Assembly (NCBI GenBank): GCA_009746045.1
Contig: RPFO01000418.1
Span: forward strand, 332,501 to 396,500
DNA: 64,000 nt
Source of the DNA: Mesostigma viride
Lineage: Eukaryota > Streptophyta > Mesostigmatophyceae > Mesostigmatales > Mesostigmataceae
Direction of reading: 5' to 3'
The first letter of the stretch is position 1, and every line of letters begins with the position of its first letter. Below the pieces are notes generated by a model. It made no database searches and was not told the origin of the DNA. It saw only the letters and a program-made list of their open reading frames with translations. The position numbers and the translations under genes are program-made. Positions 1 to 64,000 of this stretch are shown here, in pieces.

Positions 1-3000
1 AACAGGCCCGCCTTGAGTGCGTGCGCGGCGCACGGCGTGTGCAGGCATAGATGGCCCAGGCCGGTGGTCGCCAGCAGCTTGATCTGGGGGGGTACGGTAA
101 AGGTTGGATACAGGGGAGGGTATGGTACAAAAGAGCGCTGGTATAATTGCTGTGTGTACGATCCCAGGCCGGTGGTCGCCAGCAGCTTGATGTGGGGTGT
201 GTGATGGATAACGTAGGTGGTATGCACACAGCAACACATCGTTCATTCGGATGCCATTGCTAATTTGGCAGCCCATGGTCTATTTGGCGTGCCACTTGGC
301 AACCAAGGGAAGCAAACCAGGGGAAAACAAACCAGTAGTCTCACATTTTTGTCAGACCGCACGTCCATAGGATCACAGTTGACAGTAGCTTGCCATCGAG
401 CACACATACGAAAGACGTAGAGGAGGGAAAGAGATGGACTCAATTCTTGTTATGTTACACGCGCATGCTGTTATTGCTGTGTGCATCACAGGTCCACAGA
501 ATGAGCAAGAGAGCCCGCAATATATCTGTTACGCTGGGTTGTTGCTCTTGTAGGTGGCAGCCAATGTATTTATACTACCTACGAACATACCTTTTGTGCT
601 GTCGGGTTTGTGCTCTTGTTTGTTGCGTGGCCGATGAGCAGGTCGGCCGCGCCGCCGTCGAACAGCGGCGGCCGCAACTCAGGAAACTCGGCCATGATGG
701 CCATGCCACGCAGGCCCTGCGATCCGGATGCGAGCAACGTTAACAATTTGCACCCAGTTTGCAGTCGTTCAATATGCGCTCAACTTGCAGCCATTTTTCT
801 CACGTACTTTGCATTCCGTTTTGCATTCCGTTTTGCATGCAGTCCGCATTGTAGCTGGCGGAGTCTCACAAGCCGGTACATGACAGCTTTGATTCGGTAC
901 CCTTATTACCAACCAAGTGCACGCACGCAGGTGCTTGAGGGCCCGGCAAGGGGCTTGCAGCCAGCTTGTGTTCAGCTCGCATTCAGCTCGCATGCAGCTT
1001 CCATTCAGCTCGCATTCAGCTTCCATTCAGCTTGCATTCAGCTCGCATACAGCTCGCATTCAGCTCGCATTCAGCTCGCATTCAGCTCGCGTGCAGCTTG
1101 CATTCAGCTTGCATTCAGCTCGCATTCAGCTTGCATGCAGCTCGCATTCAGCTTGCATGCAGCTTCCATTCAGCTCGCATGCAGCTTCCATTCAGCTCGC
1201 ATTCAGCTCGCATGCAGCTCGCATTCAGCTCGCATTCAGCTCGCATGCAGCTCGCATTCAGCTCGCATTCAGCTCGCATTCAGCTTCCATTCAGCTCGCA
1301 TTCAGCTCGCATGCAGCTCGCATTCAGCTCGCATTCAGCTCGCATGCAGCTTGCATTCAGCTTGCATGCAGCTCGCATTCAGCTCGCATTCAGCTTGCAT
1401 TCAGCTTGCATTCAGCTCGCATTCAGCTCGCATTCAGCTCGCATTCAGCTCGCATGCAGGCTCGCATTCAGCTCGCATTCAGCTCGCATTCAGCTCGCAT
1501 TCAGCTTGCATTCAGCTCGCATTCAGCTCGCATTCAGCTCGCATTCAGCTCGCATTCAGCTCGCATGCAGGCTCGCATCCAGCTCGCATTCAGCTTGCAT
1601 TCAGCTCGCATGCAGGCTCGCATTCAGCTCGCATGCAGCTCGCATTCAGCTTGCATTCAGCTCGCATGCAGGCTCGCATTCAGCTCGCATTCAGCTCGCA
1701 TTCAGCTTGCATTCAGCTTGCATTCAGCTCGCATTCAGCTTGCATTCAGCTCGCATTCAGCTCGCATTCAGCTCGCATTCAGCTCGCATTCAGCTCGCAT
1801 GCAGCTTGCATTCAGCTCGCATTCAGCTCGCATGCAGCTTGCATTCAGCTCGCATTCAGCTCGCATTCAGCTCGCATTCAGCTCGCATTCAGCTCGCATT
1901 CAGCTCGCATTCAGCTCGCATTCAGCTCGCATTCAGCTTGCATTCAGCTTGCATGCAGCTTGCATTCAGCTTGCATGCAGCTCGCATTCAGCTCGCATTC
2001 AGCTCACATTCAGCTTCCATTCAGCTCGCTTTCAGCTCGCATTCAGCTTGCATTCAGCTCGCTTTCAGCTCGCATGCAGGCTCGCATTCAGCTTGCATGC
2101 CAGTGAAGCGACGCCCACGAGCACATGTGAAAATGTGGGTGTTAGATTGTAAAAATGTTGGACAAGGCTTCAAGGTAAGAGGTGTATGCTTATACCAGAC
2201 AGTCAACCCTCAACCTTAAACCTTAAACAGTTACATCAACAGTCTTGGCATTACAAGGTAAAAAGTAAGACCAAAGAAACAGGTTTTATCCAGCGTTACT
2301 GCCAAGTCGATGATGTTACCCGCTGACATTGCACAGGCATGTGCATGACGCAAGCTGGGAGCCCAGACATACACAAAATGCTGAAGTCACTTTGCTAGAG
2401 GCGCGCACCAGCAGCGCTGTGTCTGGACGTGACCCTCCGAATGTCCGTGAGGCACCCTCCATCGAAAATGGCCACATATTAGACACTTCAATGTCCGCAT
2501 GCAACTCCAGCATTCAGCCTACACGCGGTGAAGGCACTGTAAAGACTGGACTAGAACCACACACCAGCAATGCAGTGTGTGAGACGTCAAGTTTCAGCGG
2601 TGCAATGTCAAAGTCAGGGAATATTGACACAGCAATGCCCATGTAGCACAGCGGTATTCAAAGCACATTATCAGGCGCACACCATCGAAATACACACTAC
2701 AGAATGCACACAACAAAATGCACCTATCAGGAGCACGGTGTCAACGTGCAACGATAGTTTACACTTACTGTGCGGTAAGATTGGAAGCACCTTTCTTAGA
2801 CTGGGGCAAGCGCCAGCAGCTCCACATCAGATGGTGAGCCAACAAAAGTTAGCAAAGCCCACTGCCGCATAAAAGTACAAGGGCTACATTGCTAAAGGGC
2901 ACCCACCATCAGCACCGTGTCTGAGTCGGTTGCAGGGTCGGCCTTCACCAGTGGAGTGCACACGGCGGCCAGCCCCTCGACGGAAAGGGACTCTGCACGC

Positions 3001-6000
3001 GGAAGAATGAGCCGAGGAAAGCACAAGACTCTCCAGAATAAAATAGGGTTAAAATAAACAAAGTTCAGTGGGTGAGGCAATGTCATATGGCAACCACAAA
3101 GCACCCGCGGACCGCCCATCAGACCCGACAAAGCAGAAACAAGAGCTGACAAGACACCGATTTACCCCGCGACCTCGCACGAGTGTTGCTTGCGCCAGTA
3201 AACGCTAGCATGTCCTCCCTATTACCCCGTGATATACTACCCGTGATACTACCACCACTGTCATTCTCCGAGGCTATCAGCATCCTTATAAATTGCCAAT
3301 CTGTTACACTGTTTCGATATGAGAGGCAGGGAGTCCCTATATGTTTTGATGCACTCTAAGGCAACTTGTATATCCTGTTGAGGTGCACTGCATGGGACTC
3401 ACCACCTTCATCCTGTCAAGATGTCAATTTTTTGTGTCTATTCTCCCCCCCCCCCCCCATCTCCATGTCAACGGATACCTCCCCCCCCCTTTTCACCACC
3501 AACCACATGAATAGATTTCCCGCCCCCAACCACCACCACCCCATGAATAGATCCCCAAGCCACCACCAACACATGATTAGATCTCCCCCCCCAACCACCA
3601 CCACTTCCTGCATCCCCTTGGCTTCCTGCATCCCCCCATGCTCCTCCCACAATCCCACGCCTGGTTCCTTCTCCCCGGCCACTCCCTGCCTTCTCTCAGC
3701 TTACTTGTATCTGTGCTGGCAGCCGCGCACGCCAGCAGTCGGGACACCATGCCGGGGGATGCCAGCGTGGCGAAGGCCTTGCACACGAGGCGTAAAGGAC
3801 GCAGCGGCCAGCCAACCGCCTGGTGAGAGAGCGGGGGGGAAGGGGGGTGGGCAAAAGCAAGAATGGCGTGTCGCGAGGGAAAGGAAATAGGCTTAGGGCA
3901 ACAGGGAAAAAACAGAGGAGTAGCTACTTACCAAAGCACGACTTGTGGGAGGATATACCACCGGAGTAAAGTATAAAGAGAAGGAACCGCATTCTCTTTA
4001 TAAGCATGCGTGTACAAGCTATGAAAGCTGAGCGCTCTCTTACACACACAACCCCTATACAGCTACTATTAAAGATGCGGGGATGCTAGAGGTTACCAAA
4101 CATCTTACCTGGCTGTCCTTGATGGCGAGCCGCCCAAACGCGGCCAGCGCCTCGTTAGACGCCGCATCGCGCTCGCGCCCGGCGACAGAGTCTTCGTCCG
4201 CGCCATCCAGGGTGGCCAGCTCAGGGACACCCAGGAGCGACCGCAGGCACTTCTCGGCGAGGGGGGGGATGGTGTCGCTAAGGGGGTTGGTCTGGAGCAT
4301 CAGCCTGGGGGACGGATGACGGTGCGCAAGTAATACAGCGTGATATGCCATGATACGGCAAGAGCAAGTTAGCAATCCATGACGGCATGGTTGAGTAAGG
4401 AGATACATGTAATTGGACAGCCACAGAGGACATGGAGATACATGCGGCCCTATATGTACTATAGCTGACCGTTGGTGAGGACATAGAGATACATGCGGCC
4501 CTATATGTACTATAGCTGACCGTCGGTGAGGATATATAGGACCAGCATGGACACACGAGGGCATGGCATAGAAGAACATAGATATGGTGGCATAACTGGT
4601 CCCAGCACGCTGCAAAAGGGTGGACACACAAGGGCACTGCGGTACAGAAGGTATAGTAGCAGTCTATCCCTACAGTAGCAGTCTATCCCTACAGTAGCAG
4701 TCTATCTCTATAGTAGCAGTCTATCCCTATAGTAGCAGTCTCTTCTATAGTAACAGCCTATCCCTACTGGTATTGCTATAAAGATGCAAGCTTCATCGTG
4801 GCCAGCACGCAAACTATGTACATCACGAGATGGGAATGAGTAAATGGCATGGCCAGGGGGGAATGAGGAGGGAGGGAAGATTGCAGGAAACCACATTGGA
4901 TGAGCCGTCTCCCACACCCTCTCACATCAGTCACATGATCAGTGGTCGTGTATATGCAGATAGCAGTCACATACAAGAGACAGAGAAAATACCTCTCACA
5001 CGATGCTGTCATAGACATGACAAGAAACCACGATGCAACTCGCAGCTGGATCATTTCATTTCACGCAAAAACAACAACAACAACAACAAAAAAAAAAACG
5101 ATGTCTTGCCTTGGCAGGTGCTCCATGACGCCACCCGCCACGAGGCCCTGCTTGCACCCGGGCCGCTCCGCCAGGGCCCCCGCGGCACGCAGCGCGGCCT
5201 CCATTGTCGAAATGGACGTGTGTGGCGGTTTGACCTGGTCCGCACATTTGAGGATAGCGGCCTGGCGGTGCGGCAAGGGGATTTGGGATGTTGCGGGTGG
5301 TGCGGCAAAGGGAGGAAGGGGGGGGGGGGGCAAGGGGGGCAGGACACATGCGGTGCGGTAGGGCAAGGTTGTAAGTGATGCGGTGGGGGCAGAATGACAC
5401 ATGGGGGATAGCACCTTGGCATTTTGTTGAGCCTAGTCTTCCTAGTTTAGCGCAGCAAGGGAAGGTCGCGGGATGTTGTATCTGGCACAGCAATGGGAGC
5501 TTGTGGCTGGAACCATCGGAAATGAAAGCAGGTGGGTAGATGGAAGGGGGGGAGATGCCATGTAGGTGGTAGATGGGTAGTTTGAAAGGGCGAGTCGCGT
5601 CAAGCATCAGGTGACGTGGCCACCCACCCAGCCACCCACACACCCAGGGCGGTCTCACTTCAGGGGGGCGCCGGTGGGGTGATCTCACCTTGGTGGAACA
5701 CCCGATTATCCCAAACTCACATATATCAATAATAGCATCTGATAATCTTATATGCACGGGGCACCGAATCCAGCACGGAGGGCCCTCCCGACTTCCTGAG
5801 TTTGTCCTACTGTCCTGCGAACCGGATGGGACCTGTCGAAGTGAGGGGCCACTGACACCACTGTAGCTGAGTGAGGGGCCACTGTAGCTGAGTGAGGGGC
5901 CACTGTAGCTGAGTGAGGAGCCACTGTAGCTGAGTGAGGGGCCGCTGTAGCTGAGTGAGGAGCCACTGTAGCTTCACCCCTGAGCCATCCAATCCCCCGC

Positions 6001-6780
6001 CGCACCGCCCGTGATTTACCAGCCGACTCACCATCTTCCTTCCCTTTCCAGCCGACCCGAGCCCCGCTCACCCCGTCAAGCAATCAAGCCAGCCACAGAA
6101 CCCTTGTGCAGCCGCGAAAGCACCACTGCGGAGCCAACAGGCGACGTGATTGGTGCGGCAACCTTGCTGGGAGGCGTCGACACAGATGGCAGGCAGTAAA
6201 TACCCCGCCAGTCGCCTGCCACCCCGCCCATCCTCTTACCCGCCAGTGACAGGGAATGTTCTCTTACCCCTTCTCTCAGACATTTCCTACCCCTTCTCTC
6301 GCCAATGCTCTCACCCCTTGTCTCACCCATTCTTTCATGCATTCTTTCACGCATTCTCTTACCCATTCTTCTACCAGCCATTTGCCAACCACCCCAATCC
6401 GTTACCGATCTGGCACCTGATGTCATCCCGCCCTTTCCCTTACCAGCCGGCCCGCCACCTCTAGCGGGGCCAATGGCGTGACGTCCGCCAACTCCCCCGC
6501 TCCCGCCGCAACGTGCGCGTACAACCTGGCCTCGTTGCTGACGTACGGCTGGCCCCAGGTGGCGCCACTAGAACCGCGGGGTCCGAACGCGCCAGGTGGC
6601 GGCGCAGGGGGCTCCAGCACGCCACTGCCCTCGGAGGTATCCGCGGGTGCGTGGGTGGCCACCGCCGCCAACACACCGGAGGCCACCAGCGCGGGTACCA
6701 GCCTGCGGAGTTAAATTTTATTATTATTGTTATTATTATTATTATTTTTTGTGGTTGTGGTTGTGGTTGTGGTTGTGGTT

Positions 6781-6816
<36 letters not shown>

Positions 6817-6920: not shown

Positions 6921-9900
6921 TGGGAGCAGCAAGCAGAAACATAGGTAAAAGACACCAACATCAGCCACCAAGCTGAGATGTTCGTCGTGTCATCGTTTGG
7001 GTGCAGCACACGCGCACGTGCACTACAAACCATGAGGTAGCATGGCACATGGGTACTGTACTACCTAGTGGGTGGGTAAGAACATGTCGGAGCCATTACA
7101 ATGGCGCAAGTCTAGCGCTCTGCAGGTGGATGGATTCCACCTTCGTGGCGGTGGTCCATTCTAGGTTCTGGCTGCTAGCCGCAGGCATGTGTCTTAGCGC
7201 AATGGCTTGGCATGGCAACCACTCCTCAGGTGCATGGATTCCAAGTTTACAGAACAAGGCCTGGGCGCAGTATACGTCGGCAGCAGGCAACACGCAACAG
7301 GCAGCCACAGCGTCATTGCGGCCTGCAGAGTACGCGGCACTGTACAGGGGAATGGCGCGCGGGGCTCCGTGACTGGCGCGGGGGAGTGCATGGGTAAACC
7401 ACCACCGACCCACCACCCCTGGGGTGGGTGGGTGGGGGGAGCTCGTGTGGTGTCCATTGCAGCGCTTCTGCGCACGTGACGTTTCATGAAAACCTCAACA
7501 GAGCAGTGCTTCTGACGTTTCCTGAAAACGCTTCACAGGAGAACTGCTCCTAGGTGGGGTGATCCCACCACCCACCTGGATTCCCGGGCCAGCGCCGTGA
7601 CCAGCCGCAGCAGAAGCGCCACCATCTCTATCGCCTCGCCCGCTGATCCTGCCATCCGCCCCGACGCCTGCCCCAGCCCCTCCGTGCCTGGTCCTCCCTC
7701 CTTGCCGGGCGGCGCCCCATCCAGCGCACTGTACGCGGTCACTATAGACCGAAGCAGCTCCTTGGTAAGCGCGGGGCAGCGGCGCAGCAGCTCGAGCGCC
7801 TCGCTGCAGGTCTCCGGCTGGTCCACCAACTGGAGGAGGGTCAGGGCCGCCGAGCGACGCAGGTCGGGCAGCCTGCTCAGCCCATGGGATGCGGGGCTGA
7901 ACGGGTGCTCGGGTAGGTGGTTTGCATGTGGGGAATCGTCCTGTTGATGCCGTCGGTCATGGAGTGGCATGGTGTGGCATGGTGTGGCATGGGACATTAA
8001 TTAGTCAACACATGGGGCATGGGTGGCATGGGACATGAATTAGTCAACACATGGGACATGGGTGGCATGGGACATTAATTAGTCAACACACATGGGACAT
8101 TAATTAGTCAACACATAGGACATGGGTGGCATGGGACATTAATTAGTCAACACATGGGGCATGGGGGGCATGGGACATTAATTAGTCAACACATGGGGCA
8201 TGGGGGGCATGGGACGTGGGATGACTTCAATCCGTTAGTCATGTGCCTCACATAGCACTGATACACTGTCAATCCGTTAGTCATGTGCCTCACATAGCAC
8301 TGATAAACTGTCAATCCGTTACTCATGTGCCTCACATAGCACTGATACACTGTCAATCCGTTAGTCATGTGCCTCACATAGCACTGATAAACTGTCAATC
8401 CGTTACTCATGTGCCTCACATAGCACTGATACACTGTCAATCCGTTACTCATGTGCCTCACATAGCACTGATACACTGTCAATCCATTAGTCATGTGCCT
8501 CACATAGGACTGATACACTGTCAATCCGTTAGTCATGTGCCTCACATAGCACTGATACACTGTCAATCCATTAGTCATGTGCCTCACATAGGACTGATAC
8601 ACTGTCAATCCATTAGTCATGTGCCTCACATAGCACTGATAAACTGTCAATCCGTTACTCATGTGCCTCACATAGCACTGATACACTGGCGCATTTGCCA
8701 TTTCATCAACCCGTCGGAAGGACATTGAGTTCAGTAGATGAGGGCACATCGTGCTTTCCAGCATTCAAGGCGTTGCGAGGGCAGACCTTCGTACGCTGCG
8801 ATTCCACAACATGAATACATTCAAATGGAATGGGGCACAGCGCGCGGGACAAAGGACACGTGACAGTCCTCCTGACCGTGGGAGAAAGGAAAGATACATG
8901 CGTCCGGCTGGGCATGCGACAGCCCAGCCAGACATGCATGAAAGCGTTGCGCTCTCCTCCCCCCACACCCCTTTTACTTCTGCGTGCTGGACGCGCCCCC
9001 GCCCCCCCCACGCACCTCGGCATGCCGGCGGTGCGCATCCGCGTCCCTGCCCGCGCCCAGGTGCAGCGCCAGGGTGGCCATGGCCTGCTCCGTGCACAGC
9101 ACCTGCGCGAGCGCCAGGTGTCCGCGGGCGACGGCCTCGGCCAGCGGCAGCGCCGCGGCGGACAGCTCGCGCTCCCACTCGAGGGAGAGCACGCAGGAGA
9201 CCAGGAGGGCCAGATGCTCCTCTTGCCGCCGCTGGTCATCAACCACCGCGACGCCCGTGCCGCTCCCGCCATCCTGTGGTGGAGAGGTACATGGGTATAG
9301 TAGTACGGGTATACGGGTATACGGTATCGAAAGAATGAATGAGTGAAAGATCGAGGGAGAAAACGGGACCTTGAACCTTATTGTAGACCGTGAACCTGAC
9401 CCTCTCATGCCGATGCCGCCGTCCTGGAAATATACATATACTGGTAGTATACGCATATGCTGTGTATGAATATACTGTGTGTGTAGTATATGCATATAGG
9501 TGTTTCAAGACACAGGCAAACTAACAAGGGCTGCCAGAGAAAAGCCCTAAGCCCTAAACCCTAAACCCAGCCTCATGCCGCTGCAGTTAATGTTAGCGGA
9601 GGTAATAACCTTATAACCTACGCTTATACTCGGTAACCAAGGGCTGAGTATAAACGGAGGTGGAGAGAATGCTATCTACGCAAAAAATAAGTACTGCCGC
9701 CTGCCTTCGGGTACTGTCCGTGCACCCCCGTAACAGCGTCACTAGAGCGGCCACTGCACCGATCGATTCATCATCAGCCAAGTCCATGTTGCATTACGGT
9801 TTACATTACAGCTTTGCAAGCCAACCCCCGTGGGCGTTGGATTCTGAAAATTTTGCATTGGGAGAGTCATGGGGTTCGAGCTGTTTAAGTACATATAGAT

Positions 9901-12900
9901 CCTCGTTATGTTCACCGGCCTGACCGCAGAATGAGCCCATAAACAAGGACAAGTCCATAAATTCACCCGCGCGCCTCCACTGGGAGCACCGCGGGGTGTA
10001 AACGACATACTACCCAGCTTACTACCTAGCATACTACCTAGCTTACTCCCTATGGTAGTGCATATCTACCTTCCATCCTGATCGGGAGACTACCAGAGCG
10101 GGGACGCGTGCCAGAAGCCCCCCAAGCAGCATATCTAAACACCAGATGGTTACCCACTAAAACTGTCGTCGACGTACCGACGGCCTCCGGAAGAAGAGCC
10201 ATTCAAGCTGCAACATACAGAAGGCCTTCGCAACAACGTCTGTTAACATGTCACGGGTTTGAAGATTATCCATGAACGCTGCCGACGCACCTAAAGCCCC
10301 CTGAATAGCACAATCAAAACTGCCGATGCACCAAAAGCCCCCTGAATAGCACAATTAAAACTGCCAACGCACCGAAAGCCCCCTGAATAGCACAATTAAA
10401 ACTGCCAACGCACCAAAGGCCCCCTGAGTAGCACAACTAAAGCTGCCGACGTACCGACGGCCCCCGGAAGAGTGCGGGGCTGTCCCTCAGCGCGGCCAGG
10501 CACTCGAGCACTGACGCGACCGCCTGCGTGTTGTACATGGCGTCCACCGATGCCGCGTCCACCAGGGGGGGTGGGGATGGGAACGCGAACGCGGTCACTT
10601 GAGGAGAGGGGAGGGCACTCCCGCCGCCCGCAGAGGAGCGGTGGCCGCCGAGTTCGCCCGCGTGGAAGCTCTGGGAGTTTGCGAGGGAGTCGCTGTCTGA
10701 TGGATCCGCTGTTTTGGTGGGGGCGGGGTGGGGTTGGGGGTGGGGTGGGGGCAGGGGTGTTGTTGGGGGTGGGGTGAGGGTGGGGTTGGGGTTGGGGGTG
10801 GTGGTGGTGGTGGTGGTGGTGGTGGTGGAAGTGGGAGTGGGAGTGGGAGTGAAAGTGGGAGTGGGAGTGGGAGTGGGGGTGGGGGTGGAGGTGGGGGTGG
10901 GATAGAAGTGCCAATCGGTTGTCACCAGTATGGCATCGGCAAGTTATCAAGCGCTTTTCTAATTCGGCAATCACAGTAGGAAGCATGGCATCCGTGAAGT
11001 GTCAGAGGACTAGCCCGTACAAGCACGGGAGTGTGCTAGCGAGTCACTGTCTGAGGGGTCCGCTGTGCCGGGATCATGGGAGATTGGAGGCCAGCGGGGA
11101 ATGGAGTATCAAGGATTCTTTTTGATTGATGCACAACAACTTATAAACAACATAAAAGGCACAAGCACACACACACGGCAGGACTCCAAACGTAGTTTCA
11201 CTTTTTGGAGACCGAGACTCATCACCGTACTCTGATGACGCAAGACACCGCACATATGCACACACGCGACACACACACACACGGCACAAGCCTGATGACG
11301 CACTTTCACTCCTCGGGGACCACGACTCCTTGCCGTCCCTCCGATCCCCTGACAAAGAAGGGTTCCCCGTGGCTGGCAGCGCGCCTGTGTCCAGCTGCGG
11401 CAAAGCCCCCAGCCGTGATGTGGGCGGGCCCGGCTGGCCCCCCCCGCTCTCTTCCCTCCCGTCCCAACTCCCACCACTCCCAGCCAGGGCCAGCCGCTGC
11501 ATGAGCGGAGGCGCGGGGGGCGACAACCGGTCACCCTCGCTCCCGTACCCTGCGTCATCGAGAGACGCCCGAGGAGTGACAGGTGTGTTATGCATCTGCA
11601 TGAGACTCGCGACCGGTCCGGGGCGGCCAGCGACCTCCCCCCCTTTCCCTCCTCCGGCGCCTGCGCGGGTGCCCTTGCTGGCCTTGGCCCCCGCGGTCTG
11701 CCCTCTCCCGGCCGGATCCCTGCGCAGCTGCCGCACCATACGGGAGTACTTCTCGCGACGCAACGACCGCTCCTGCTCCTTGGGCGAGCCGATGCCCCCG
11801 CCCCCCAAACCACCGCGGGCCTGGCCGCCCTCCAGGGGGCTCCCAGGGGCCGACCCGCCCGCAAAAGCCCCGGCCAGGGTCCCTGACGGGTCCAGGTTGG
11901 CCTCCACAAGCGCGAGCATGGCGGGCAGGAGCGGCGGGGAGAGCAGTGCGTCGTGCCACCTGGCGCGCTCGTCGCGGCTGCGGGAATTAAACGATGCCGG
12001 TGTCGTGGCAGAGCCAGCAGGGAACACCAGGTCGGCTGTCGCTGACGTGGCGGGGCCAACCGGGAGGAGGGGACTTGCCGCGGTGGCACCCGCGGGGCCG
12101 GGGAGCCGCCCAGGGCTCCCCCTTGGTGGTTGTTGCTGCCCGGGGGAGGACCGAGCGAGTGCGGAGGAGGCCGTGAGGGTGGACGCGGAGGAAGGGGGGA
12201 TGGATGCGGCCGCGTGACGTGACAGGGATGCGAGCGTGGCGGTCGCGTGGCAGCGGATGCGCGGGTCTGGGCTGAATGTGATCCACTGCGGGTTGATGGG
12301 GAGGGGGGCCGTGTGCGGGGGTGTGAGGAGGCAAAGCGATGTTGGGGTGGGCAGGGAATAGCAATGTGGGGGTGTGAGGAGGGAATAGCAACAACAGGGT
12401 CGCAGGTGCGTCAAGTAGCGCTGAGCACCCCGGTGCAGGTATAGGAAGATCCCCTCACATTGCAAAACGTCTCCTGACCAAACATTACAGGAAAGTCATA
12501 CTACTAGTATACCGATGATTTAGGTATGATCTAGGCACATTGAGGTATGATATAGGCACATTGATGCCAATTAAAATACCAGAATAATTTAGAACTTGCA
12601 ACATCACGACTTGGAGCATCTCCTTGAGGCTTACATCATATGTAATCTCCTCACAACTAAACAACTTCATTAAACGGTACATCATCCCCTCACGTCGTGT
12701 AGTGTGTACTTGTTTCATACATCATACATATAACATAAAGCATCAACCCCTGAAGTCACAGAGTGTATCCTTATTTCATAGATAATAAACACAACATAGA
12801 AGTATAACATCATCCCCTCACATCGTAGGGTGTGTCCTTGCTTCATACACCGCATATAGGGTAGAAAACATCATCCCCTCACATCGTAGGGTGTGTCCTT

Positions 12901-15900
12901 GCTTCATACACCGCATACAGGGTAGAAAACATCATCCCCTCACATCGTAGAGCGTCTCCACCAAGGTGTCGGCAGAGAGTGCCGCCGCGCCATCCGGCGT
13001 GTTGGCGAGCGCCGCGTACACCCTGGCCAGATGGCGATGCACCAGCTCGCCCGCGTTGGGGGCGTGCCAGGTGTTGCTCTCCTGGAGCTTGCGCGACAGG
13101 GACTCCAGGGACCCCAGCACGCCGGCCTGGGCGAAAGAAGAACGGGAAGAGGGAAAGAGAGGGTAAGGCATGCAGGGCGCAGCCAGCGAGTCAGCAACTC
13201 ACCCACACACCTGAGCCGTCTACCACCCTCAACGGAGGCAAAAGACCGGAGAAAAAGTTACTCACGTAAAACAGACCGGAGAAAAAGGGACTCATGCGAA
13301 ACAGACCGGAGACCAAGGGACTTGTGCATCTTCACAAGCTGGATATCAGCAAGTTGTCATAGATGCTGACGTGCCCTCTGTTCTGCCATCTTGGTTGAAG
13401 ATGACGGAAAAGCGGCAGATGCCGAAAAAGCGGCACACCTTGAGCCACCATCTCCCTTTCATGAGCCACTGTCTCCCTTTCATTAGCCACCGTCATCCCT
13501 CCTCCCTCGTCCTTTAGTACAAAAATTACAATAGAGAACACGCTGGTCCACTGCCATGTGGGGCTGATACAGTAGACAGGACACACATCAATGGGAGGGA
13601 GGAAGGAAACAGAGCGCACCTTGCGACTCCCCGCCGCGCGGGGTTGATGGGACATGAGTCGATGGGAGGAAGGAAAGAGAGGGCACCGTGGGATTCACAG
13701 GCACGTGGTGCCCATACAGTGAACGGATACCCATACAGTGAACGGATACCTTGTCTTCACGTTTCTCTGATGACTTATGCTACGGCATCTTGAACGGAAG
13801 ATCACCTGGATCCACCGCCACGAACCATAAAAACTGCGCTTGGTTGCTGGATGTAACAAATTAGCGGCTCACCTTGGTACACAGCAACGACGTGCACATA
13901 AAATAAATCAATACCTCCTTTCCATCCCTTGACGATTACCTTTATGAGAGCTTCTATGGTAAGGAAAGCTCACCTTGGTTCACAGCCAAGACATGCCAAA
14001 ACAATACATCAATACTATTACCTCCTTTCCACCACTCTACGATTACCTTTATCATATCCCATACAGTAACTAGACCCACCTTGATCCACAGCCACGCGGT
14101 GCCGCTGCTGCCGTCCGCGTCCTGCAGGTATGTTGACAGCGACGACAGGATGCTAGCAAACAGCGCGCACGCCTGCCCTGTTGTCTCCTTGGCGGCTGCC
14201 AGCTGGCAGAGGAGTGCAAAGTCGCGGCCGTCGTTCGCCAGCAGTTGCTTGCAGCTCTCCCGCGGGGCTGCCAGGAGGCGTCAGAATTCAAAAGTATACC
14301 AAGGAAAAGAGGCTTTTGAAAGAGTTCATAAGATAATGTTAATAGGAGGTTGTTCATAAGAGGTTCTTCAAAGAGTTCATAAGAGTTTGCTGATAAGAAG
14401 TTGTTTATAGGAGGTTCTTCAAAGAGTTCATAAAAGTTTGTTGATAAGCGGTTGTTCATACAAACTTCTCCCGCGGGGCGGCCAGAAGGCAGGAGAGAGG
14501 AAGGAATCGAAGCAACATTATATGCATTCTAATGGGCAATGAAGGAATTGGGATGAAAGGCTCTCGCCAGCAGGGCTGCCAGGAGGAATGTGACAGGTAA
14601 GAAAAAACGCTTCAGTGATTTTAGTAAGAAGCATTACCAACGTGGGGTTGCCAGAGGGTTGAAGAATAATGAGGCATCGCGAGGTAAGAAAAAGAAAAGA
14701 GGTATTCCTTTGGGGCTTCCAGTGGACCGGAGAGGGAAACACACCAAATAAAACAGCAGTACTGAATTAAGAACTCTTAAAAGGCAAAGAAGGAGAAGAA
14801 GTCCGGATGACAGCTTCTCAAGCAGGGCTGCCGGCTGCGAGAAGAGAGCCTACATGTAAAGGGAATTGTTTGAGTTAACACCCACGTTCAAGGTATAAAG
14901 AGATAAAGTGGGCCATAGTGGGCCATAATGAGAACACGCGGGATCGCATGCAGGGCGATGGGGGCCTGCCAGAGATCAGGACATTAAAATGCATTTGACA
15001 GTAACGGAAACATTTACTATACATCTGTACGGTGATGAACGGTTCTCTGCCTGGGGTAGCCAGGAAAGCAATTTAACGCAAACTTGACGCTTGTTATTTG
15101 GGAAGAGAATTGCTCGGCATCCTAGAGGGCATTTGGCCAGGAGCGCGCGGGCACAATTAGTGCGCAAAAGAGATGGAGTGGCGGACGCCAAACGCCAAGC
15201 GCCAACTTCAATGTGACTCCTAGGCGATGTCAAGGTGACTGTAAGGCCACACCAACGTGACCTCCAGGCCACCGCAAGGTTTACGTATCAACCACTGCCC
15301 CCCGATACCTGCGCCGAGGAGGGTCCCTACTACATGTCACGGCTGCCAGAACGTACCTGCCCCCACGAGGTTGTGTATCACCCGCAACAACCGCCAGCAG
15401 CTCGATCCAATCGCCTGCCGGGGCGACGCTGGCCCATCCTGGCCGCCACCCCCGACCACCATCGCCCCCCCCACCAGATCCCCCCCTCCACCCTCCCCCA
15501 GCTCCACCCCCATTCCCCCCTGGCAGCGCAGCATGGTGTCCAGGCACGTGAGAAGTGTGTGGAGCGCGCCACCTGGCGCCTCAAGGATGGGCTGGCACAC
15601 CGATGCCTCTCCGGTGTCCGCCAGGCAATCCATCAGCCGCAACGCCAGTCCCTGGCAGTCGCCCAGCGGGTCGACCACCGATGTAATCCCGCCACCGCCA
15701 CTCCCGAATCCGCCGCCCGCTCCGCTGTTGCGGAGCCCGCCACTGGCGGCCATCACGCCACTGCCAAATCCGTTTCCGCCGATGCCACCACTCATGGTCC
15801 CAGCGCCGTCACGGGCCGCGCCGCTGGCGCACGCCTCCGCGGCATCCCTCGCCTCTGCTAGCAGACGCAGCAACGAGGTGACGGCACCGCTGGCCACGAC

Positions 15901-18756
15901 CGCTTCTTGCACCCGTAACGCCCACGCGCGGTCCGCCGCCATGAGCGGGCCGCTCACCCCGCCCCCACTCCCGCTGCTGCTGGTCATGATGCTGCTGCCC
16001 GTCACGCCGGGCCCCGCCACCGCGAGGGAGCAGCCCCTCAGCACGATCAAGAGCGCATTGCGCAGCGTGATTGAGGCCTCCACCTCCTCGTCCTCCGCCG
16101 CAGAGGAGGATCCCGGGCGATGGCCACCCCATGCGCCCCCGCCAGGTGTCATCACCACGGGGGAACTCGAGGGGACCCCGGTCGTGTCGGTCATATTACT
16201 ATTTATAGCACTGGGCGTATGGGTGCCTCCATGAGTGCCCGCACCAGAAGGGGTGCCGAGCGCTGTCCCCCCCGCGGGTAGGGAGGTTGCGGAGGAGGAT
16301 GCCATGGAGGGGAGGGTCAAGGGCGGCTCATTCGGCGCGCACCAGTCGCACGCGCACTCGCGGTCGCGCCCATGCAACCCCGCGATCACCTCGAGGAAGG
16401 GCTGGTGCGCGCCCGCGTCGACCGCTATTTTTAGCCCGCTGCGCCCGCTCTTGTCCAGCAGGTGCAGCAGCGCGGCCCACGCGTGCGCACGCGTGCATCG
16501 TGCCTGGCCCCTCGCGGGGGCCGGGAGAGGGGACAAGGCGCCCAGGGGGCTGTCAGCGTAGTGGGAAGGCGTGGGGCAGCTGACGCCACTGCCCAGGGGG
16601 GTTCCGGCGGAGGATCCAGCCGCGGGGAAGGCGGTGGTCCCTGTGTCGGTGCGGGAGTGGGAGAGCTTCTCTGCCAGGGACATGGAGGCGAGGGCCACCA
16701 GGGACCCCTCGAGCGCGGGCGTCACGTGCAGCGCGCGGAAGCAGGCCAGCTGGTAGCCGATGCGCGCCACCTGGGGCGCGGGCGAGAGCAAAGCGGGCGA
16801 GAGCGAAGCAGTAGAACGAAGAGTAAGGAGAGCAAGTGCCATGAAATCGACGAGGGGAGGGGGCAGAATGAGCAAATAAGCTGAACAAGAGTAGTGACGA
16901 ACAAGGTGAATAAGAGGAATGACAAACAGGTGATTAAGAGTAGTGACGAACAAGTGGAGTACGAGAGTTGACGAGTACCAGGATACAGCAGAGGGGGAAG
17001 AGGGGAAAGAATGAGCCAACGGTGAGGGCGTATGTGAGGGGGATGGCGGGGGAACAAGAGCATCTAGAAGTAGAGTGAGCAAAACGGGGAGCCGGTGCGT
17101 GCCACCTGGTGCGCGGGCAAGAGCGGGAGGAGGAGAAGTGACAGGCGCGAGCACAAGGCAGTTAGAATGAATCGAGTGGGCAGCAGCGGTTCGAGGAAAA
17201 TGGCATGGGCAGGAAGACAACAAACAGAGGTATGCCCCCCATTCCCCCCCCATTCCAAAACTCGCTCCCACAGCGGTAAATAAGTTACCACCGCCACAAT
17301 ACTCCCTGTGGAAAAGGAGAACAAGTCGCCTGTTCGCACGCCCACCCTTGGCAACCGGTTCACCAAGCAAGGGAAGAACAACTTGTCACCTAATTGCTTA
17401 CTGAAGAAAAATGAAATTGCTCACCTGTTCACACAGCGGCAGGTTGGTCAAATTCGCCTGTGCGAGTGCCAGCACATCCGCCACCACGCTGGCATCGGCT
17501 ACCAGCAGCGTGCGCCCCGGTGACGACCCCGACAAGGCCAACAGGCCATCCAGCACCGCGGCCAGTTGGGGCGGCAAGCTGCTGCTAGCGCTCGCACCGC
17601 CGCCGCCGCTATTAACAGCGCCAGCACCGATGGCACCCGACAAAAACTCGTGGAAGCAGGAGAGCAGGGACTGGCTGGTGGAGGTTGACTTGAGCAGGTC
17701 GTCGTGCAACCCAGGGTTTCCCTGGAGGATGGTTGCAAGTTCCCCCAGGGCCTTGGTCAGGTCGGACGAGGGGTGGGGGGCGTCCTTGGAGCCCCCGGTG
17801 GCAGAAGAGCCTCCGACCGGGAGAGCGCTTCTTACTGCCGTCACGGCAGCCTCTAGCTGGGCAAAGGAGGCCGTAGGGGGCGAGATCAGGGAGGAGGAGG
17901 AGAGCGTGGAGTGTGGGGGCGGGTGGTGGAGGTTATAGTGTGCGTGCGCGAGGAGCGGGCTCTCGCTCGCGATGGGCGATGCGAGCCCTGCCAGGGCGTC
18001 CGGTGCAATGCTGATGCTTGGCTTGGAAGGGGGGACCCTGGCAGCAGGCGTTGCGCCCCCGACGGGCGGGCGGGCACTTGGGGGGGGGGCACGAGAGGGC
18101 GGCTCCGAAAGGAAATCGGCGCGGATGCTGGAGGGTGATACGGGCGCCGGGGACGGGGCATGAGGAGGTGTCGCTGCCACGTGGTGACCGCTGGGCCCCA
18201 GGGACGCGCTGACTTCATTATGGGGGTCCTGGCCAGGGGCCGGCGGCGAGTAGGGGGACTTGGGCGCTTTGGTGGCGTCGCGGGGCGGAATGCCAGGGGT
18301 CCTGTCGGTCTTGTCGGTGGAGAAGAATTTCAGGGCCCCGCTCCTGACCGTCTCGGCCACAGACTGGGCGGAGGAGGATTCGCGCTTGTCAGTAGAAGAC
18401 CTTGCGCGCAGTCGTCCATCAGGGGTGGCGGCAGGGCTGGCACTGACAGGGGGACGTGCGCCGGGCGAGGCCGTTGCCGACTCAGCCATTTTGGTGAGAT
18501 CGAGAGACGGCATCTTGGACAGGGTCGTTCGCGGCCGGCTGGCGGGGCTACTTTCCGGGCGCGCGCGAGGCTGGGATGCCGAGCGCGCTTGGGATGGAGC
18601 GTCGTCCGGGCGAGACCGGGGTCCAGGGCTAGGGGCGCGACCGCCCCAGAAACGGTGGGGTTTACCATCAGGGGTGCCCGAGACCTTCTCGGGCTTCGAA
18701 GAGTCATCCGGAGTCCGAGCAAGTCGTGAAACAGCTTTCTCCACGCGTTTGAACAT
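1..18756 (-). CDS. Large multi-exon protein, disordered N-terminus plus armadillo/HEAT-like helical region (5' part, runs off left edge)
   Basis: The gene begins with an ATG at 18756. Exons, all on the minus strand and read from high to low: 18756-17425, 16770-15357, 14267-14080, 13126-12944, 12285-11310, 10708-10455, 9273-9016, 7940-7576, 6702-6459, 5261-5110, 4304-4109, 3777-3705, 2992-2907, 716-591 and 83-1. Fourteen exons sum to 5847 nt (exactly 1949 codons), and every junction phase agrees; the last adds 27 codons. All introns are GT-AG except 5109-4305, which is GC-AG. Residues 1 to about 300 are Ser/Pro/Ala-rich and probably disordered. After that come runs of amphipathic helix such as LATILQGNPGLHDDLL, SVLECLAALRDSPALF and LAEKCLRSLLGVPELA, which resemble armadillo/HEAT repeats, separated by low-complexity inserts. 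I do not recognise the family; a BEACH-type or other ARM scaffold is possible. The exact acceptors of exons 10, 12 and 15 are the least certain. Confidence 0.75.
970..2100. repeat. 11-bp minisatellite (ATTCAGCTCGC) inside an intron of the ARM/HEAT-like gene
   Basis: About 100 copies of the unit ATTCAGCTCGC occur with recurring variants (ATGCAGCTCGC, ATTCAGCTTGC, ATTCAGCTTCC) and an occasional extra base (GCAGGCTCGC). Because three units make 33 bases, all three plus frames stay open, which yields spurious 400-500-residue frames. It lies in the 2.2-kb intron between the exons at 2907 and 716. Confidence 0.95.
4640..4775. repeat. 19-bp tandem repeat (AGTAGCAGTCTATCCCTAC), intronic
   Basis: Roughly six copies occur with small changes. 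A second duplicated segment (GAGATACATGCGGCCCTATA) lies just before it at 4430-4545. Confidence 0.85.
5838..5975. repeat. 21-bp tandem repeat (GAGTGAGGGGCCACTGTAGCT), intronic
   Basis: About six copies of a ~21-bp unit occur, some with GAGGAG for GAGGGG. The array lies between the exons at 6459 and 5261. Confidence 0.85.
6715..6921. repeat. Compound trinucleotide/hexanucleotide microsatellite, intronic
   Basis: TTA repeats, then GGTTGT, GGC, GGT and GTA/GCA repeats follow each other. All lie just upstream (gene sense) of the acceptor at 6702. Confidence 0.95.
8229..8690. repeat. 42-bp tandem repeat, about 11 copies, intronic
   Basis: The unit TCAATCCGTTAGTCATGTGC plus CTCACATAGCACTGATACACTG repeats with few changes (TTAG or TTAC; GATACACTG or GATAAACTG). 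At 8000-8225 a different ~38-bp repeat (GGGACATTAATTAGTCAACA) precedes it. Both lie in the intron between the exons ending at 9016 and starting at 7940. Confidence 0.9.
9545..9569. repeat. Interstitial telomere-like repeat (CCCTAAA)
   Basis: GCCCTAAGCCCTAAACCCTA and the following AACCC make three units of the plant/green-algal telomere repeat, within an intron. Single diverged units also occur at 33439-33453 and, as CCTTAAA, at 2211-2228. Confidence 0.7.
10712..10908. repeat. GGGGTG/GGTGGT/GGGAGT microsatellite, intronic
   Basis: This G-rich plus strand tract corresponds to a long C-rich polypyrimidine-like stretch right before the acceptor of the exon at 10708 on the minus strand. Confidence 0.9.
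11310..12285 (-). CDS. Exon 5 of the large ARM/HEAT-like gene (976 nt)
   Basis: The exon starts WITFSPDPRIRCHATATLAS after a CAACCCGCAG acceptor and stays open to a probable GTGAAAG donor after SWSPR (phase 1). The first 20 residues and a middle part (WHDALLSPPLLPAMLALVEANLD) look helical; the rest is Gly/Pro/Ser-rich and basic (LRREKYSRMVRQLRRD). The phase-1 end joins cleanly to the acceptor of the next exon at 10708. The donor is chosen partly because a diverged copy about 100 bases downstream keeps the same GTGAAA. Confidence 0.65.
15357..16770 (-). CDS. Exon 2 of the large ARM/HEAT-like gene (1414 nt)
   Basis: The exon runs from a CGCCCCAG acceptor (first residues VARIGYQLACFRALHV) to a GTACGT donor after HNLVGAG, entering in phase 0 and leaving in phase 1. 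It contains helical stretches (AHAWAALLHLLDKSG, LKIAVDAGAHQPFLEVI, VQEAVVASGAVTSLLRLL, LALRLMDCLADTGEASV) typical of solenoid repeats. Between them are Gly/Ser/Thr-rich inserts that look like expanded simple sequence. Confidence 0.7.
17425..18756 (-). CDS. Exon 1 of the large ARM/HEAT-like gene (444 codons)
   Basis: This first coding exon is open for 444 codons and ends at CTGTGTGAACAG before a GTGAGC donor, in phase 0. It starts MFKRVEKAVSRLARTPDD. About 300 Ser/Pro/Arg-rich residues follow, then helical sequence (AQLEAAVTAVRSALPV, LTKALGELATILQGNPG, LAAVLDGLLALSGSSPG). The start is the first ATG of the frame, and no coding signal lies upstream on this strand up to 20 kb. Confidence 0.75.
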
Positions 18757-20224: not shown

Positions 20225-21940
20225 ATGGCTGGCGACCGTCTTCAACCCAACGGGTTAGAAAATCATATCGAGGAAGTTGACTCGGACGAAGAAGATCGGT
20301 CTCAAGAAGACCCAGCTGAAGCAGGCTACGCAGAGGTAAATACGACGACAACGTCAGCGTCGACGACCATTGCCCACTAGTTGCACCATATATACTCAAT
20401 CCATTCCGTTCTTTCAAGTATTTACTTTGATTTTCTGTTGCTATCTTTGTGCTGCTCTTTCATATGGCGTTCAGCTCCATTTCGAGGAAGATGGCGAGCT
20501 CGGCCCGGATACGGTGGAGGACACAGGGCCTGCTCAACGCAGGGAGGCTCCAAGTGGCTTGGCTGTTGATCCCAATTCCGAACCGTTGGACGAGCAAGCC
20601 GAGGAACAGTACGAGGCCGAGGAGCAGCGAAGGGCGGCTGCTGCACGGGCGGCGGCTATTGAGGCGGAGCGCGTCCGAGCAACGCCACTAAGCGAAGATC
20701 AACGTCGGGCTATTTTGGGAGCCATGCAGGTCAGCATCCATATTACCCTGAAGCTTGCGTTCTTCTTGGATGTTTTCCCTATCTAATCCCACACTTGGCA
20801 ACTGCCTGTGCCAACCCCAAGCTGTTTCTCAGTATTTCTAACGAAGGCTGGGCCACTTCTTATGTCATTGTAAGCATGTGCAAACCGTCCTCGTGCCGCG
20901 TGCCAGGGTCCCCGTTGTGCCGGGGCTGCTGTGTGAATCAGTAGCTATTTTTGGCCGACCTTCTTACGACCGTGGTTGCCTACACTTGCTTGCTGGAGAG
21001 CTGTGTCATGTTGCGCTGCTGAGGGGTGCGTCATCTGACTGGCTCAGAATGCAATGTCGAACAGTTGAGGTGACAAAAACGGATAACGACATGTCATGTT
21101 CTTTCTGGCAGGTCGTTTTGATTTGCCTTGGAATTGCATTCCCTCCCTTCCCCGAGTGTTGCCTATTCCCGACGTATTCCCTGCCTTTTTTCTGCATATT
21201 CCCTGGGCTTTTCCTGCCTAATTGCCTGTCTATTCCCTGGCTTGCAGTCTGTTATTTATCCATGGAACAACATGCCTGCGCACACACCAGTAGAGTGTGG
21301 CTTGGACCCATGAAACCGCGCGCCTGCGCACACCTGTATTCCTGGTAATACCCAGTGCCACCACCTGTGAGGTGGGTGCAAGGCCCGCGGCCGTGCTGCC
21401 TTCTGGCAGGGCACACCGCTCGTTGGTACGTTCTGGACTTGGCGACACCCTGTGCAAGTGTGCATGCCTGACGGTGACGTTGTTAACTTGTGGCCGCCTT
21501 GCAGGGCGTCACGTTTACGGGCGCATTTTGGATCGGCGATGATTTCCCTAAGTCCTCAGCATGTGTGCATGTGTGTGTGGTGATCTTGGTCGCTCACTGC
21601 TCCTTGCCGGGCGTAAGGATGACACGCCCGTAGGTCCTCCGCAGTTGTGTTCGCCTGCGGCGACATTGCTGTCATCTCATCTTGTTGCAGGGCATCAATC
21701 TAATGAGCACTCTAATGTCATAATGTCACACTACTGAAGCGTCATCTTGCTGCAGGGCGTCACGTTCATGGGCGGATGACAGTCGATTGAGCACCAATGC
21801 ACGCCTGCCTGCGGTCATCTTGTCTGCTGTTGCAGGGTATCACGTTCACCGGGGCGGAACCGGCGTGGGCGCGCAGCATACCCGAGGATGCGTGGATGGC
21901 GCAGATTCGGGAGCGTGTGAACAAGTCCAATTCGTCATAG
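20225..21940 (+). CDS. MEA1: Male-enhanced antigen 1 (MEA1) family protein, three exons
   Basis: The exons are 20225-20335, 20475-20729 and 21836-21940. All introns are phase 0 with GT-AG ends, giving 156 residues. The protein is acidic, with N-terminal Asp/Glu clusters (VDSDEEDRSQED, LHFEEDGELGPDTVED) and a charged Glu/Arg/Ala helix in the middle. It ends in the conserved family segment LSEDQRRAILGAMQ-GITFTGAEPAWARSIPEDAW. This aligns with the C-terminus of animal MEA1, where a helix and a Gly-Val-Ser-Leu stretch lead into Pro-Ala-Trp-Ala-Arg-(x)-Ile and a following Trp. MEA1 has no well-defined biochemical role; it was first noted for raised expression in testis. The match rests on the last ~45 residues. 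Intron 2 contains extra partial copies of the exon 3 boundary. Confidence 0.8.
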
Positions 21941-26557: not shown

Positions 26558-26607
26558 TTAAAGTTTCAACTAAAGTCTTTGAGGAAAAAAAAGTTCGTCG
26601 GCGGCCG

Positions 26608-27340
26608 GCACACCGGCACACCGGCACACCGGCACACCGGCACACCTCAAATTGCATGTATGCACACACCTTTGCACATGCAATTGTTATCCATGGGATT
26701 TATGTAGGTGGATGGGTCATGCAAGGGTTACCTAGATGCTCATGACACCGTGGCACCGTGGCATCGTGCCACCGTGCCACCGTGCCACCGTGCCACCTCA
26801 AAAGTTGCATATAAACACACATATTTGCACATACAATGGTTATCCATTGGGATTTATCAAGGGTAATGGGTCATGCAAGGGTTACCTAGACATGCTCATG
26901 ACACCGTTGCATCGTGGCATCGTGCCACCGTGCCACCGGCACACCGGCACACCGGCACACCGGCACACCGGCACACCGGCACACCGGCACACCGTTGCAC
27001 CTCAAATTGCATATAAACACACACCTTTGCACATGCAATTGTTATCCATGGGTTTTATGTAGGTGGATGGGTCATGCAAGGGTTACCTAGATGCTCATGA
27101 CGTACACCATGGCACCGTGGCATCGTGCCACCGTGCCACCGTGCCACTGTGCCACCTCAAAAGTTGCATATAAACACACATATTTGCACATACAATGGTT
27201 ATCCATTGGGATTTATCAAGGGTAATGGGTCATGCAAGGGTTACCTAGACATGCTCATGACACCGTGCCACCGTGCCACCGTGCCACCGTGCCACCGTGC
27301 CACCGCGCCACCGTGCCACCGTGCCACCTCCACAACGGTA
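26608..27340. repeat. Composite repeat: CACCGGCACA/CACCGTGCCA minisatellite alternating with ~110-bp spacer module
   Basis: Four spacer modules begin CCTCAAA near 26645, 26796, 27000 and 27155. Modules 1 and 3 share TTGCACATGCAATTG; modules 2 and 4 share TTGCACATACAATGG. So there is a higher-order unit of about 355-359 bp. Between modules lie runs of the 10-bp unit in the CACCGGCACA or CACCGTGCCA form. Confidence 0.8.
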
Positions 27341-58665: not shown

Positions 58666-61600
58666 ATGAAGTCCTCTACGAAGAAAACAGTACGTTAGTC
58701 CATTCCCACGTATATCTTCTTCCGGCCCCACAGGTTTCGTGTGCAGTCCTCGTCCTCGTTGATGATAGGAAGTGATTATGTCAGTCGCTCGAACGAGTAC
58801 GTTGCCGTTGTTCCCGGTTGCTACAGACGAACAGGCAGTATGAGAGCCAGAAAAAGATCAAAATTGCGGCTGGAATGCTTATAGAGTAACAGATGCGTTC
58901 CCGTCTCGTAGTAACCCGTGGATTTTTCCCGATGACGAAACCCTCCGAGATCGGGGTGGACGTGAATTTCACAGGGCTCTTACCTTTTGAAGTGCCGCCT
59001 ACTATCAATTTTCTGCTTGTGGCATGATCACCTTTACCGTTATCAGGCGGCCCCTCCGGTCAAAGTAACCAAGAAGAAGGGAGCCGCTGCTGGCAATGAC
59101 ACACCTGGCCGCCATGAACAGGAGACGAAAGCGGAGGACCCGGCATCGGCGGCCGCCCAGGGAGACGCTTGGGACGTTGTACGTAAACATGGGAAACTAA
59201 ACACTGAGTAAGCGACTACTTGCCAGGACGAATTATTTGGGCGGGAGGATCGCCCTTGCTGCCATGCTATCTTCTTATTGATACCCGCATAATCAGTATT
59301 CCTGTCAGCTTTCTAAAAGTACATGTCTCTCGTAAAATATGAAGACCAGTGGAAGAGGCTATGAGGGCCAGGTACAATCCCTGCTGCACTGATATCGTGC
59401 CGGAATTTCCGAATCTCTTTTTATCCAGTTTGCATTTTGCCATCCCCTGGACAACTGTCAGTATGATGGATAGATTTTGGTAGCTCATTCCCTGATCTGC
59501 GAAAGCAATGCCAATCGGTAAATGTTGAAGCTACAATTCTGGCATGGTCATACGCTGTGGCCGATTATGGCAGGGCGATATGGCCTAGTATTAGAGAGGT
59601 CGGACGCTTGGCCTAGTCACACATCAGCCATTCACATCCACTATCCATATCCATGGCGAGACCACATACCCCTCCCCCTCCCCCTCCCCTCCCCCTCCCC
59701 CTCCCCCTCCCCCTCCCCTCCCCCTCCCCCTCCCCCTCCCCCTCCCCTCCCTCCCCCTCCCCTCCCCCTCCCCTCCCCTCCCCTCCCCTCCCCCTCCCCT
59801 CCCCCTCCCCCTCCCCCTCCCCTCCCCTCCCCTCCCCCTCCCCCTCCCCTCCCCTCCCCCTCCCCCTCCCCCTCCCCTCCCTCCCCCTCCCCCTCCCCTC
59901 CCCCTCCCCTCCCCCTCCCCCTCCCTCCCCTCCCTCCCCTCCCCCTCCCCTCCCCCTCCCCCTCCCCCTCCCCCTCCCCCTCCCCCTCCCCTCCCACTCC
60001 CCCTCCCCCTCCCCCTCCCCCTCCCGCTCCTACCCACGATTGCTGCATCAACAACACTCATTGCTGCTATGGAAGGGCCACCATTGCTGCCACTAACGCC
60101 GCGGCTGTCATCGGTGTTCCCCGGCTGTCCATCTGCCGGGCCGCCCACCCTCCCCCTCCACTCCCAGCCACGCATGGTGGTGGTGGTCCCCCCCGAGCAG
60201 CTCAAGCTGAGCAAGGAGGAGCTGGTGGCAGAGACCACCAAGATGCTCACGGCCAACAACCCGTACGTCCTGGCTCAACATGCTGACTGAATCACTGTGC
60301 CATTTGTCAACACAGGACTCAGACATGTCTGTCAAGCCAGCGGCGCCAATCAATAGTCATGTGCACGTATTGGCAGAGCAGGAGCCCCATAATGCACTTC
60401 GCCATGAACATAATACCGCTGCCGTTCTAACCACATGAGGTCCGGCTGATCATGATGCTGACGTCTATTCACGATATCCATTAATGATTACAAGGGCCCC
60501 AGCGACAATGATGCCGCCCTTGAATTGCTACAAGAGCCATATGCTCCTTTGTGCTCCGCGATGTGATGCTACGCAGCCCTGTGGCTGAGTCCGTGCGATG
60601 CTTATTGACCCCTGAGTATGCGGCTTTCAACGGGTAGGGGGGTGGGGGATGCTGGGGTGACAAGAATAGCTGCGTGTGCTGACAGGCTAGGCTACAAAGG
60701 GACGGGCAACCCGGAGCACGGTAGATACATAGCGAATAGTTGTGTCGTTGATATGAGGGAATGCTCGCCTTTTGGAACTTCAGGGACGTAGGCCCTGCCA
60801 CTTCCCCTAAGGAGTCTGGTATTCTTGGCAAGTGGCGCATGATAGAAGTGTGTGTGCGTGCTCTCCTGCCCTGCTCCGCCTGTCCCCATCCCCGCAGCAA
60901 CGCGCCCACCAACATCGCGCGCTACAGCTACAAGGAGAAGACGTTCAAGTTTGAGCCCATGGTGGACCAGGTGGGTACTAGTACTTGCCAAGTGGGATAA
61001 GGAGATAGACCCCCGCGTGCGGTACAGAGCTATGAAGAAGACCAGTTGAGCCCATGGTGGACCAGGTGAGTACTGCGCGTGGGATAGGTAGATAGACCCC
61101 CGCTTGCGGTACACGGCTATAAAGAAGACCAGTTGAGCCCATAATGGATCACCTGAGCCATGCGAGTGGGCTTTAAGGTTGGAACCCATCGTAGCTTGCT
61201 CGCGTTGTCAAGCTCTAGGGACAGCCAGCAATGAGCGCTACAGAGACGACCAGCCTGACTTGCATGGTGGGATGTGCATGGAATGGCAGGGGAGTAGCCT
61301 GGAATAGAACCTGGTTTATGTGTTTGTCATGCGATCGGATCGGGGTGCCACACCCAGCATCGACCGTGGCACAATGACCGATAGAGCACTTTGCCCCACA
61401 GGCAAACCCGCCGGTATTGCCGCAGTGGATTAGTTAAAAGCAGCAGTGGATGACCGGGCGTACATCATGGGTAGTTGTCGGCTCTCAGAGCCTGGATGAG
61501 ATGTGTGTGTGTGTGTGTATGTGTGTGTATGTGTGTGTGTGTACACCAGCGTGTATGTGATGAACGTATATCCCTCGACAAGGACAAGAAGCATCATGTA

Positions 61601-63854: not shown

Positions 63855-63867
63855 GTTGGGGCTACTT

Positions 63868-64000
63868 TCCTCCTCTTCCTCTTCCTCTTCCTCTTCCTCT
63901 TCCTCTTCCTCTTCCTCTTCCTCTTCCTCTTCCTCTTCCTCTTCCTCTTCCTCTTCCTCTTCCTCTTCCTCTTCCTCTTCCTCTTCCTCTTCCTCTTCCT
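63868..64000. repeat. (TTCCTC)n microsatellite at the right edge
   Basis: An uninterrupted TTCCTC run begins 14 bases after the dynein exon 7 donor and continues to the window end. It was probably a reason for the assembly or window context ending here. Confidence 0.95.

Follow-up and report, generated by a model that had tools for sequence, protein, structure and literature searches.

Copies of exon ends near 5' splice sites in introns of the green alga Mesostigma viride, resembling the boundary-spanning mirages of amphioxus

Minisatellite-like tandem duplications that span exon-intron boundaries, called mirages, have been described in the amphioxus Adh3 gene and the globin genes BflGb6 and BflGb9, in a report that also cites earlier work on Adh3 (PMC3087553). 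According to the account given there, mirages lie at 5' or 3' boundaries, have units of tens to about 160 bases and carry splice signals in many copies but not all, and splicing is regular. Here we describe similar repeats in the green alga Mesostigma viride, in a stretch of 64,000 nucleotides (the window; contig RPFO01000418.1, positions 332,501 to 396,500) and in genes beyond it. A sequence-only reading of the window had proposed that its introns expand by repeated tandem duplication anchored at splice junctions, and had taken such junction duplication to be undescribed; on the latter point it was mistaken, since the amphioxus mirages are already known. As in mirages, the Mesostigma repeat units span exon-intron boundaries (17 of 61 donors and 6 of 61 acceptors have a junction-spanning copy within their own intron), both 5' and 3' boundaries are affected, in Mesostigma the donors more often, and the authentic site is used despite the cryptic copies, which in Mesostigma is known from the annotated proteins CCT4 and CCT3. 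Unlike the mirages, they occur in a green alga and not in a chordate, and they are present in 9 of the 11 genes sampled. Relative to the mirages as reported there, the lineage, the quantified frequency, the donor bias and the limited exon reach, the last two measured here in Mesostigma, are new.

Two other systems are related. In the potato RdRp gene, a single duplication crossing an intron-exon boundary made a new intron (PMC4974935). Both cases involve tandem duplication of splice signals across a boundary, but a new intron arose there, as that source presents it, whereas in Mesostigma existing introns are lengthened. Introners, like our case, involve introns that change rapidly throughout a genome, but the sequence described for them is common to many genes (PMC9860276), whereas the Mesostigma copies are private to each intron. 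Among the matches listed from the open-licence literature, with subscription papers outside the scope, there was no report of boundary repeats in an alga, and such repeats are not mentioned in the passages on introns, splicing and repeats of PMC6947507 or in those on introns and "tandem" of PMC7027972. In the published Mesostigma assembly (441.8 Mb), introns average 1142 bp and rank second longest among the species compared, and the authors tie their length to repetitive elements, which occupy 30.1% of intron space (PMC6947507; as stated in those passages).

Our full sample consisted of 61 introns from 11 genes (median length 775 bases), namely the window genes, gamma-tubulin and the chaperonin (CCT) genes, the last of which were picked blind to repeats and gave 41 usable introns. 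Seven of 48 CCT junction calls were left out, 4 from the allele-like locus L049 and 3 of low score (L050_CCT8_i1, L050_CCT8_i5 and L055_CCT1_i3), and loci L054 and L056 had zero usable introns. The spliced CCT4 model (locus L053, nine introns) encodes 532 residues and matches the annotated Mesostigma viride protein Mv12911 with 100% identity, and the CCT3 model (L051) is 100% identical to Mv15887 (556 residues) over 383 residues. A good share of the introns examined hold worn copies of the adjoining exon end, mostly near the intron start. The same boundary queries found nothing in the introns of other loci (0/348), which indicates that copies of the own junction exceed chance. Beyond the window, the pattern was seen again in CCT genes and, as donor arrays, in introns 9, 10 and 11 of a dynein intermediate chain gene (DNAI1-like; gene C of the window).

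The duplication is anchored at donors and not clearly at acceptors. This is evident from where arrays begin, an array being a set of merged non-simple direct repeats (n=35; L050_CCT8_i3 is missing since no pair passed, though its copy shows in other comparisons). Of the 35 left edges, 15 fall within the 40 exon bases that adjoin a donor and none in the 80 bases upstream of those (Poisson p ~1e-9 for the excess), against about one in each 40-base bin elsewhere. Inside the intron there are 4 in the first 40 bases, 2 in the next 40 and none over a further 200, and the 120 bases beyond have 1-2 in every 40-base bin. At acceptors, 4 of 35 right edges lie in the first 40 exon bases, close to the background of 1-3 per bin, and the edges at donors (15/61) and acceptors (4/61) differ (Fisher p 0.011). 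The proposed anchoring at splice junctions therefore holds for donors, in unrelated genes, and not as an equal anchoring at both ends. An exon-only query, which does not favour the splice site, was also used. With it, the final 50 bases of the exon had a copy in 13 of 61 introns, compared with 1/61 and 0/61 for control queries from -110..-60 and -160..-110, and 34 of 38 exon-only matches (16 introns) end at most 3 bases from the junction.

The exon part of the copies is short. In 20 donor arrays (15 first tested and 5 weaker ones), the strict exon reach, taken as the largest per boundary and thus biased upward, ranges over 7-38 bases with a mean of 25.7, and is 27-38 in 12 of them; lenient alignment gives a mean of 28.8 and a maximum of 55, with three values raised (L050_CCT8_i3 to 41, and introns 9 and 4 of gene C, hereafter C9 and C4, to 42 and 55). 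First copies are offset by 22-175 bases, and the upstream-side repeat coverage is zero from -46 outward. Breakpoints placed uniformly over the unit are disfavoured by the maximum (P 0 of 400,000, strict; 0.0001, lenient) and by the mean (P 0.0015, strict; 0.008, lenient). Young examples are an exact 40-base duplication including 31 exon bases in CCT8 intron 3 (L050_CCT8_i3), DNAI1 intron 9 (31 exon bases, 95-base unit) and CCT3 intron 5 (31 exon bases, 48-base unit). We infer that the CCT8 duplication is common to both allele-like copies of that gene, because no indel of at least 6 bases lies there. Mirages can differ in copy number between haplotypes or somatically; in this one allele-like pair, L049 and L050, the boundary arrays show no difference of at least 6 bases over about 3.9 kb. 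The two copies (C1641 and C887, respectively) have 83 mismatches in 3917 aligned bases, and the length of CCT8 intron 4 differs between them by about 3.2 kb.

Full tandem units were found in C4, C9, C11 and in introns 3 and 4 of window gene A (A3 and A4), and some other introns have single copies. In the single copies of L051_CCT3_i2, L047_CCT2_i7 and L052_CCT5_i2, likeness ends about 10-17 bases past the donor and then drops to the random level, near which the downstream similarity also lies in L048_CCT7_i3 and C10. Longer units continue in C4, C9, C11, A3 (offset 106), A4 and L047_CCT2_i3, and the downstream similarity of L052_CCT5_i3 is slightly above its shuffles. The decay of copies with distance that had been suggested is broadly visible in A4 and C9 and absent in L051_CCT3_i5 and L047_CCT2_i3.

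Intron growth is usually attributed to transposons. In Mesostigma, part of it begins at the 5' splice site itself, and boundary duplication is apparently one way in which the introns have been lengthened. We consider it probable that these are mirage-like, boundary-spanning minisatellites in a green alga, in which donor-anchored duplication recurs and minisatellite growth follows. A short local duplication, its 5' edge lying between a few and about 40 bases before the exon end, would recur and bring the 5' splice site into the intron, where the unit (25 to about 175 bases) would often be duplicated further in tandem and so lengthen the intron. The exon-proximal donor would remain in use and the intronic copies would drift as neutral decoys. 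Acceptor copies occur too, at a frequency similar to that of duplication in the rest of the intron. Of the proposal that introns expand by repeated junction-anchored duplication, local duplication tending to start at the junction in unrelated genes is thus retained, and an equal role of the two junctions is not. The anchoring would stem from biased mutation at donors that are transcribed, and not from selection. Donor bias together with short reach points to an agent that knows the 5' splice site, hence to transcription or splicing, and if the short reach is true genome-wide, the duplication would be tied to one of these. A more specific and tentative possibility is that a process recognizing the 5' splice site and coupled to transcription or splicing copies about -31 to +9 into the intron, as in L050_CCT8_i3, and so seeds minisatellites that lengthen introns genome-wide; candidate agents are a paused polymerase, spliceosome-shielded pre-mRNA and RNA-templated repair. 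The occurrence in both Mesostigma and amphioxus suggests more than one origin of the pattern.

R-loops were also considered, given the richness in G of the sense strand at intron starts, but array-bearing and array-free introns are alike in this respect, and the idea was dropped on this weak test. In the pooled 61 introns, the first 100 bases have a positive GC skew on the sense strand and the last 100 a negative one.

Several points weigh against donor-anchored duplication. The sample comprises 61 introns from 11 genes, and 41 of these introns are from CCT genes. The pattern is lacking or weak in two tubulin genes: in gamma-tubulin, 0 of 8 boundaries were positive by BLAST, with one donor scoring 32 under less masking of the intron start, and the best score in 4 epsilon-tubulin introns, which were held outside the 61-intron count, was 26 against a threshold of 30. 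Repeat coverage at the donor (0.230) is close to that of the next 100 intron bases (0.204; the confidence interval of the difference includes 0). The array of L050_CCT8_i8 has a doubtful junction call, and its exclusion leaves 14/34 left edges at donors (p 8e-9). Among 30 upstream exons measured, 7 do not reach 110 bases and 17 do not reach 160, so that the far exon controls and the far coverage bins lie partly off the exon. The arrays show no association with local G content, GC skew or intron length, and thus no causal signal there. Finally, the 34 copies scored for their splice dinucleotide (see below) are not independent, as 9 come from one intron.

The alternative that survives best, although we think it unlikely, is that duplication is random and that selection shapes what remains: copies with more than about 40 exon bases would be purged as pseudo-exons and short ones tolerated. 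Under exon definition very short exons are poorly recognized, and the strict reach never exceeds 38 exon bases, with only the three lenient values of 41 to 55 above it. Purging, however, is unable to create the excess of array starts at donors. Even when uniform breakpoints are cut at 40 bases, the strict reach of the 20 arrays remains high in its mean (p 0.006) and deviates in its spread (p 0.04), though longer reach is easier to detect and the choice of the largest reach also favours long values. Selection against pseudo-exons could still be a shaper of the exon reach within donor-anchored duplication.

It appears rather improbable that tandem duplication is simply random along the sequence and that boundary copies only remain recognizable for longer because selection acts on their exon side. 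Tandem repeats are indeed common throughout the window, 2 of the 5 indels of at least 6 bases between L049 and L050 look like tandem duplications, and intron interiors are repeat-covered too (0.115). Moreover, random intronic windows had copies in their own intron in 58 of 348 cases, simple repeats counted, which is similar to the boundaries (23/122), so introns are repeat-rich overall and being copied is no speciality of the junction. From this comparison, which had been suggested as a check on the junction proposal, we read at one stage that boundaries are no hotter than the intron as a whole; this was revised, as the control counts simple repeats and gauges coverage rather than array starts, and the array starts are concentrated at donors. 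Coverage itself is twice as high at the donor as in the interior, and its value at the acceptor (0.066) does not differ significantly from the interior. Against this alternative, among repeat pairs of at least 85% identity 9 of 19 left edges still lie in [-40,0) of a donor, so that slow drift on the exon side is unlikely as the explanation: the excess there is about tenfold, and by our estimate a one-sided clock would yield no more than about twofold. The predominance of donors over acceptors is a further argument against it.

It is doubtful that the copies are retained by selection as decoy or auxiliary splice sites. Many of them keep GT, and CCT4 intron 5 (L053_CCT4_i5) contains about 35 units of 25 bases that start exactly at +1, most with GTGAGG. 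On the other hand, the splice dinucleotide is retained in 26 of 34 copies, no more than expected from drift (0.83, the square of the exon-part identity of 0.909), and thus with no sign of upkeep. The first-copy offset is divisible by 3 in only 2 of 15, so splicing at a copy would disrupt the reading frame in most cases. At the protein level, the annotated CCT4 (whole) and CCT3 (383/556 residues) reflect splicing at the exon-proximal donors and skip the copies, including the CCT4 intron 5 array, which also speaks against true tandem exons in these two genes. At the level of annotation, the copies look like unused decoys.

It is very improbable that the copies are introners, which are mobile intron units, or true tandem exons. 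A 60-base match linking introns of two different genes speaks for such units, but it is the only between-gene match at E<=1e-6 among the 61 introns, where introners would place one element in many genes. The boundary queries hit nothing at other loci, and both annotated proteins leave the copies out.

In the window itself, genes A (- strand, 18756..~11074) and B (+ strand, ~20225..21940) were read from the sequence, and gene C (+ strand) runs from 58666 past the window end and was traced beyond it. A homologue search with exon 2 of gene A found none at E<=0.001, and Pfam gave few matches on the large open reading frames (ORFs) of the window. Under a stringent test (ungapped, at least 17/25 matching), 6 of 24 boundaries of the 12 introns in genes A, B and C have copies of their own junction, and affine local alignment recovered the identical six. 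All four gene A cases are on the - strand. Intron 1 (16771..17424) has an acceptor copy at 17087-17124, 33/38 identical to the real acceptor at 16752-16789, and intron 2 (14268..15356) has acceptor copies at 14467-14490 and 14563-14586. A3 (13127..14079) has a donor array at 13867-14094 with a unit of about 100 bases and a copy at 13803-13822, and A4 (12286..12943) has a donor array at 12680-12959 with a 61-base unit and an older copy at 12449-12481. On the + strand, gene B intron 2 (20730..21835) has acceptor copies at 21499-21524, 21668-21697 and 21748-21776, and C4 (60971..61903) has a donor array at 60951-61170 with a unit of 87-95 bases and a copy at 61046-61074. By self-alignment, the arrays of A3, A4 and C4 start about 14-21 bases inside the exon.

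The exons of gene D were called by hand, without homology support, and this gene was tallied apart from the 61 introns. On its - strand, the acceptor with exon start 83 has a copy with an exon-like start at 191 (55..191), in which 29/29 exon bases are identical (163-191 vs 55-83). Weak donor copies occur at 2 of 6 hand-called introns, at 2389..2425 (-) for the donor at 2906 and at 6040..6059 (-) for the donor at 6443. The sequence-only reading was thus right that genes A, B and C carry diverged copies of their own junctions, and for gene D this extends to one acceptor and two weak donors on hand-called exons; its count of at least 13 boundaries shrinks to 6, or 9 including gene D. Nor is most of A3 explained by such copies, as had been thought: they cover 22% of it at E<=1e-3 and 31% at E<=0.5, compared with 1% for shuffled sequence. 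Long minisatellites also lie within hand-called introns of gene D, at 971-2098 (11 bp x 102) and 8227-8688 (42 bp x 11).

Among other features of the window, an intronless ORF of 4746 residues at 42781-57021 (-) matches only tropomyosin, with a score under the curated cut-off, which suggests a coiled coil. An ORF with a reverse-transcriptase domain (PF00078) at 40247-40930 (+) probably belongs to a non-LTR (long terminal repeat) element of about 39.6-41.9 kb, the type and extent being our own reading. Outside the gene models, arrays of 8-bp units, CACCGGCA and GGTGTGCC among them, are located at 26605-27328, 29522-29775 and 32852-33550.

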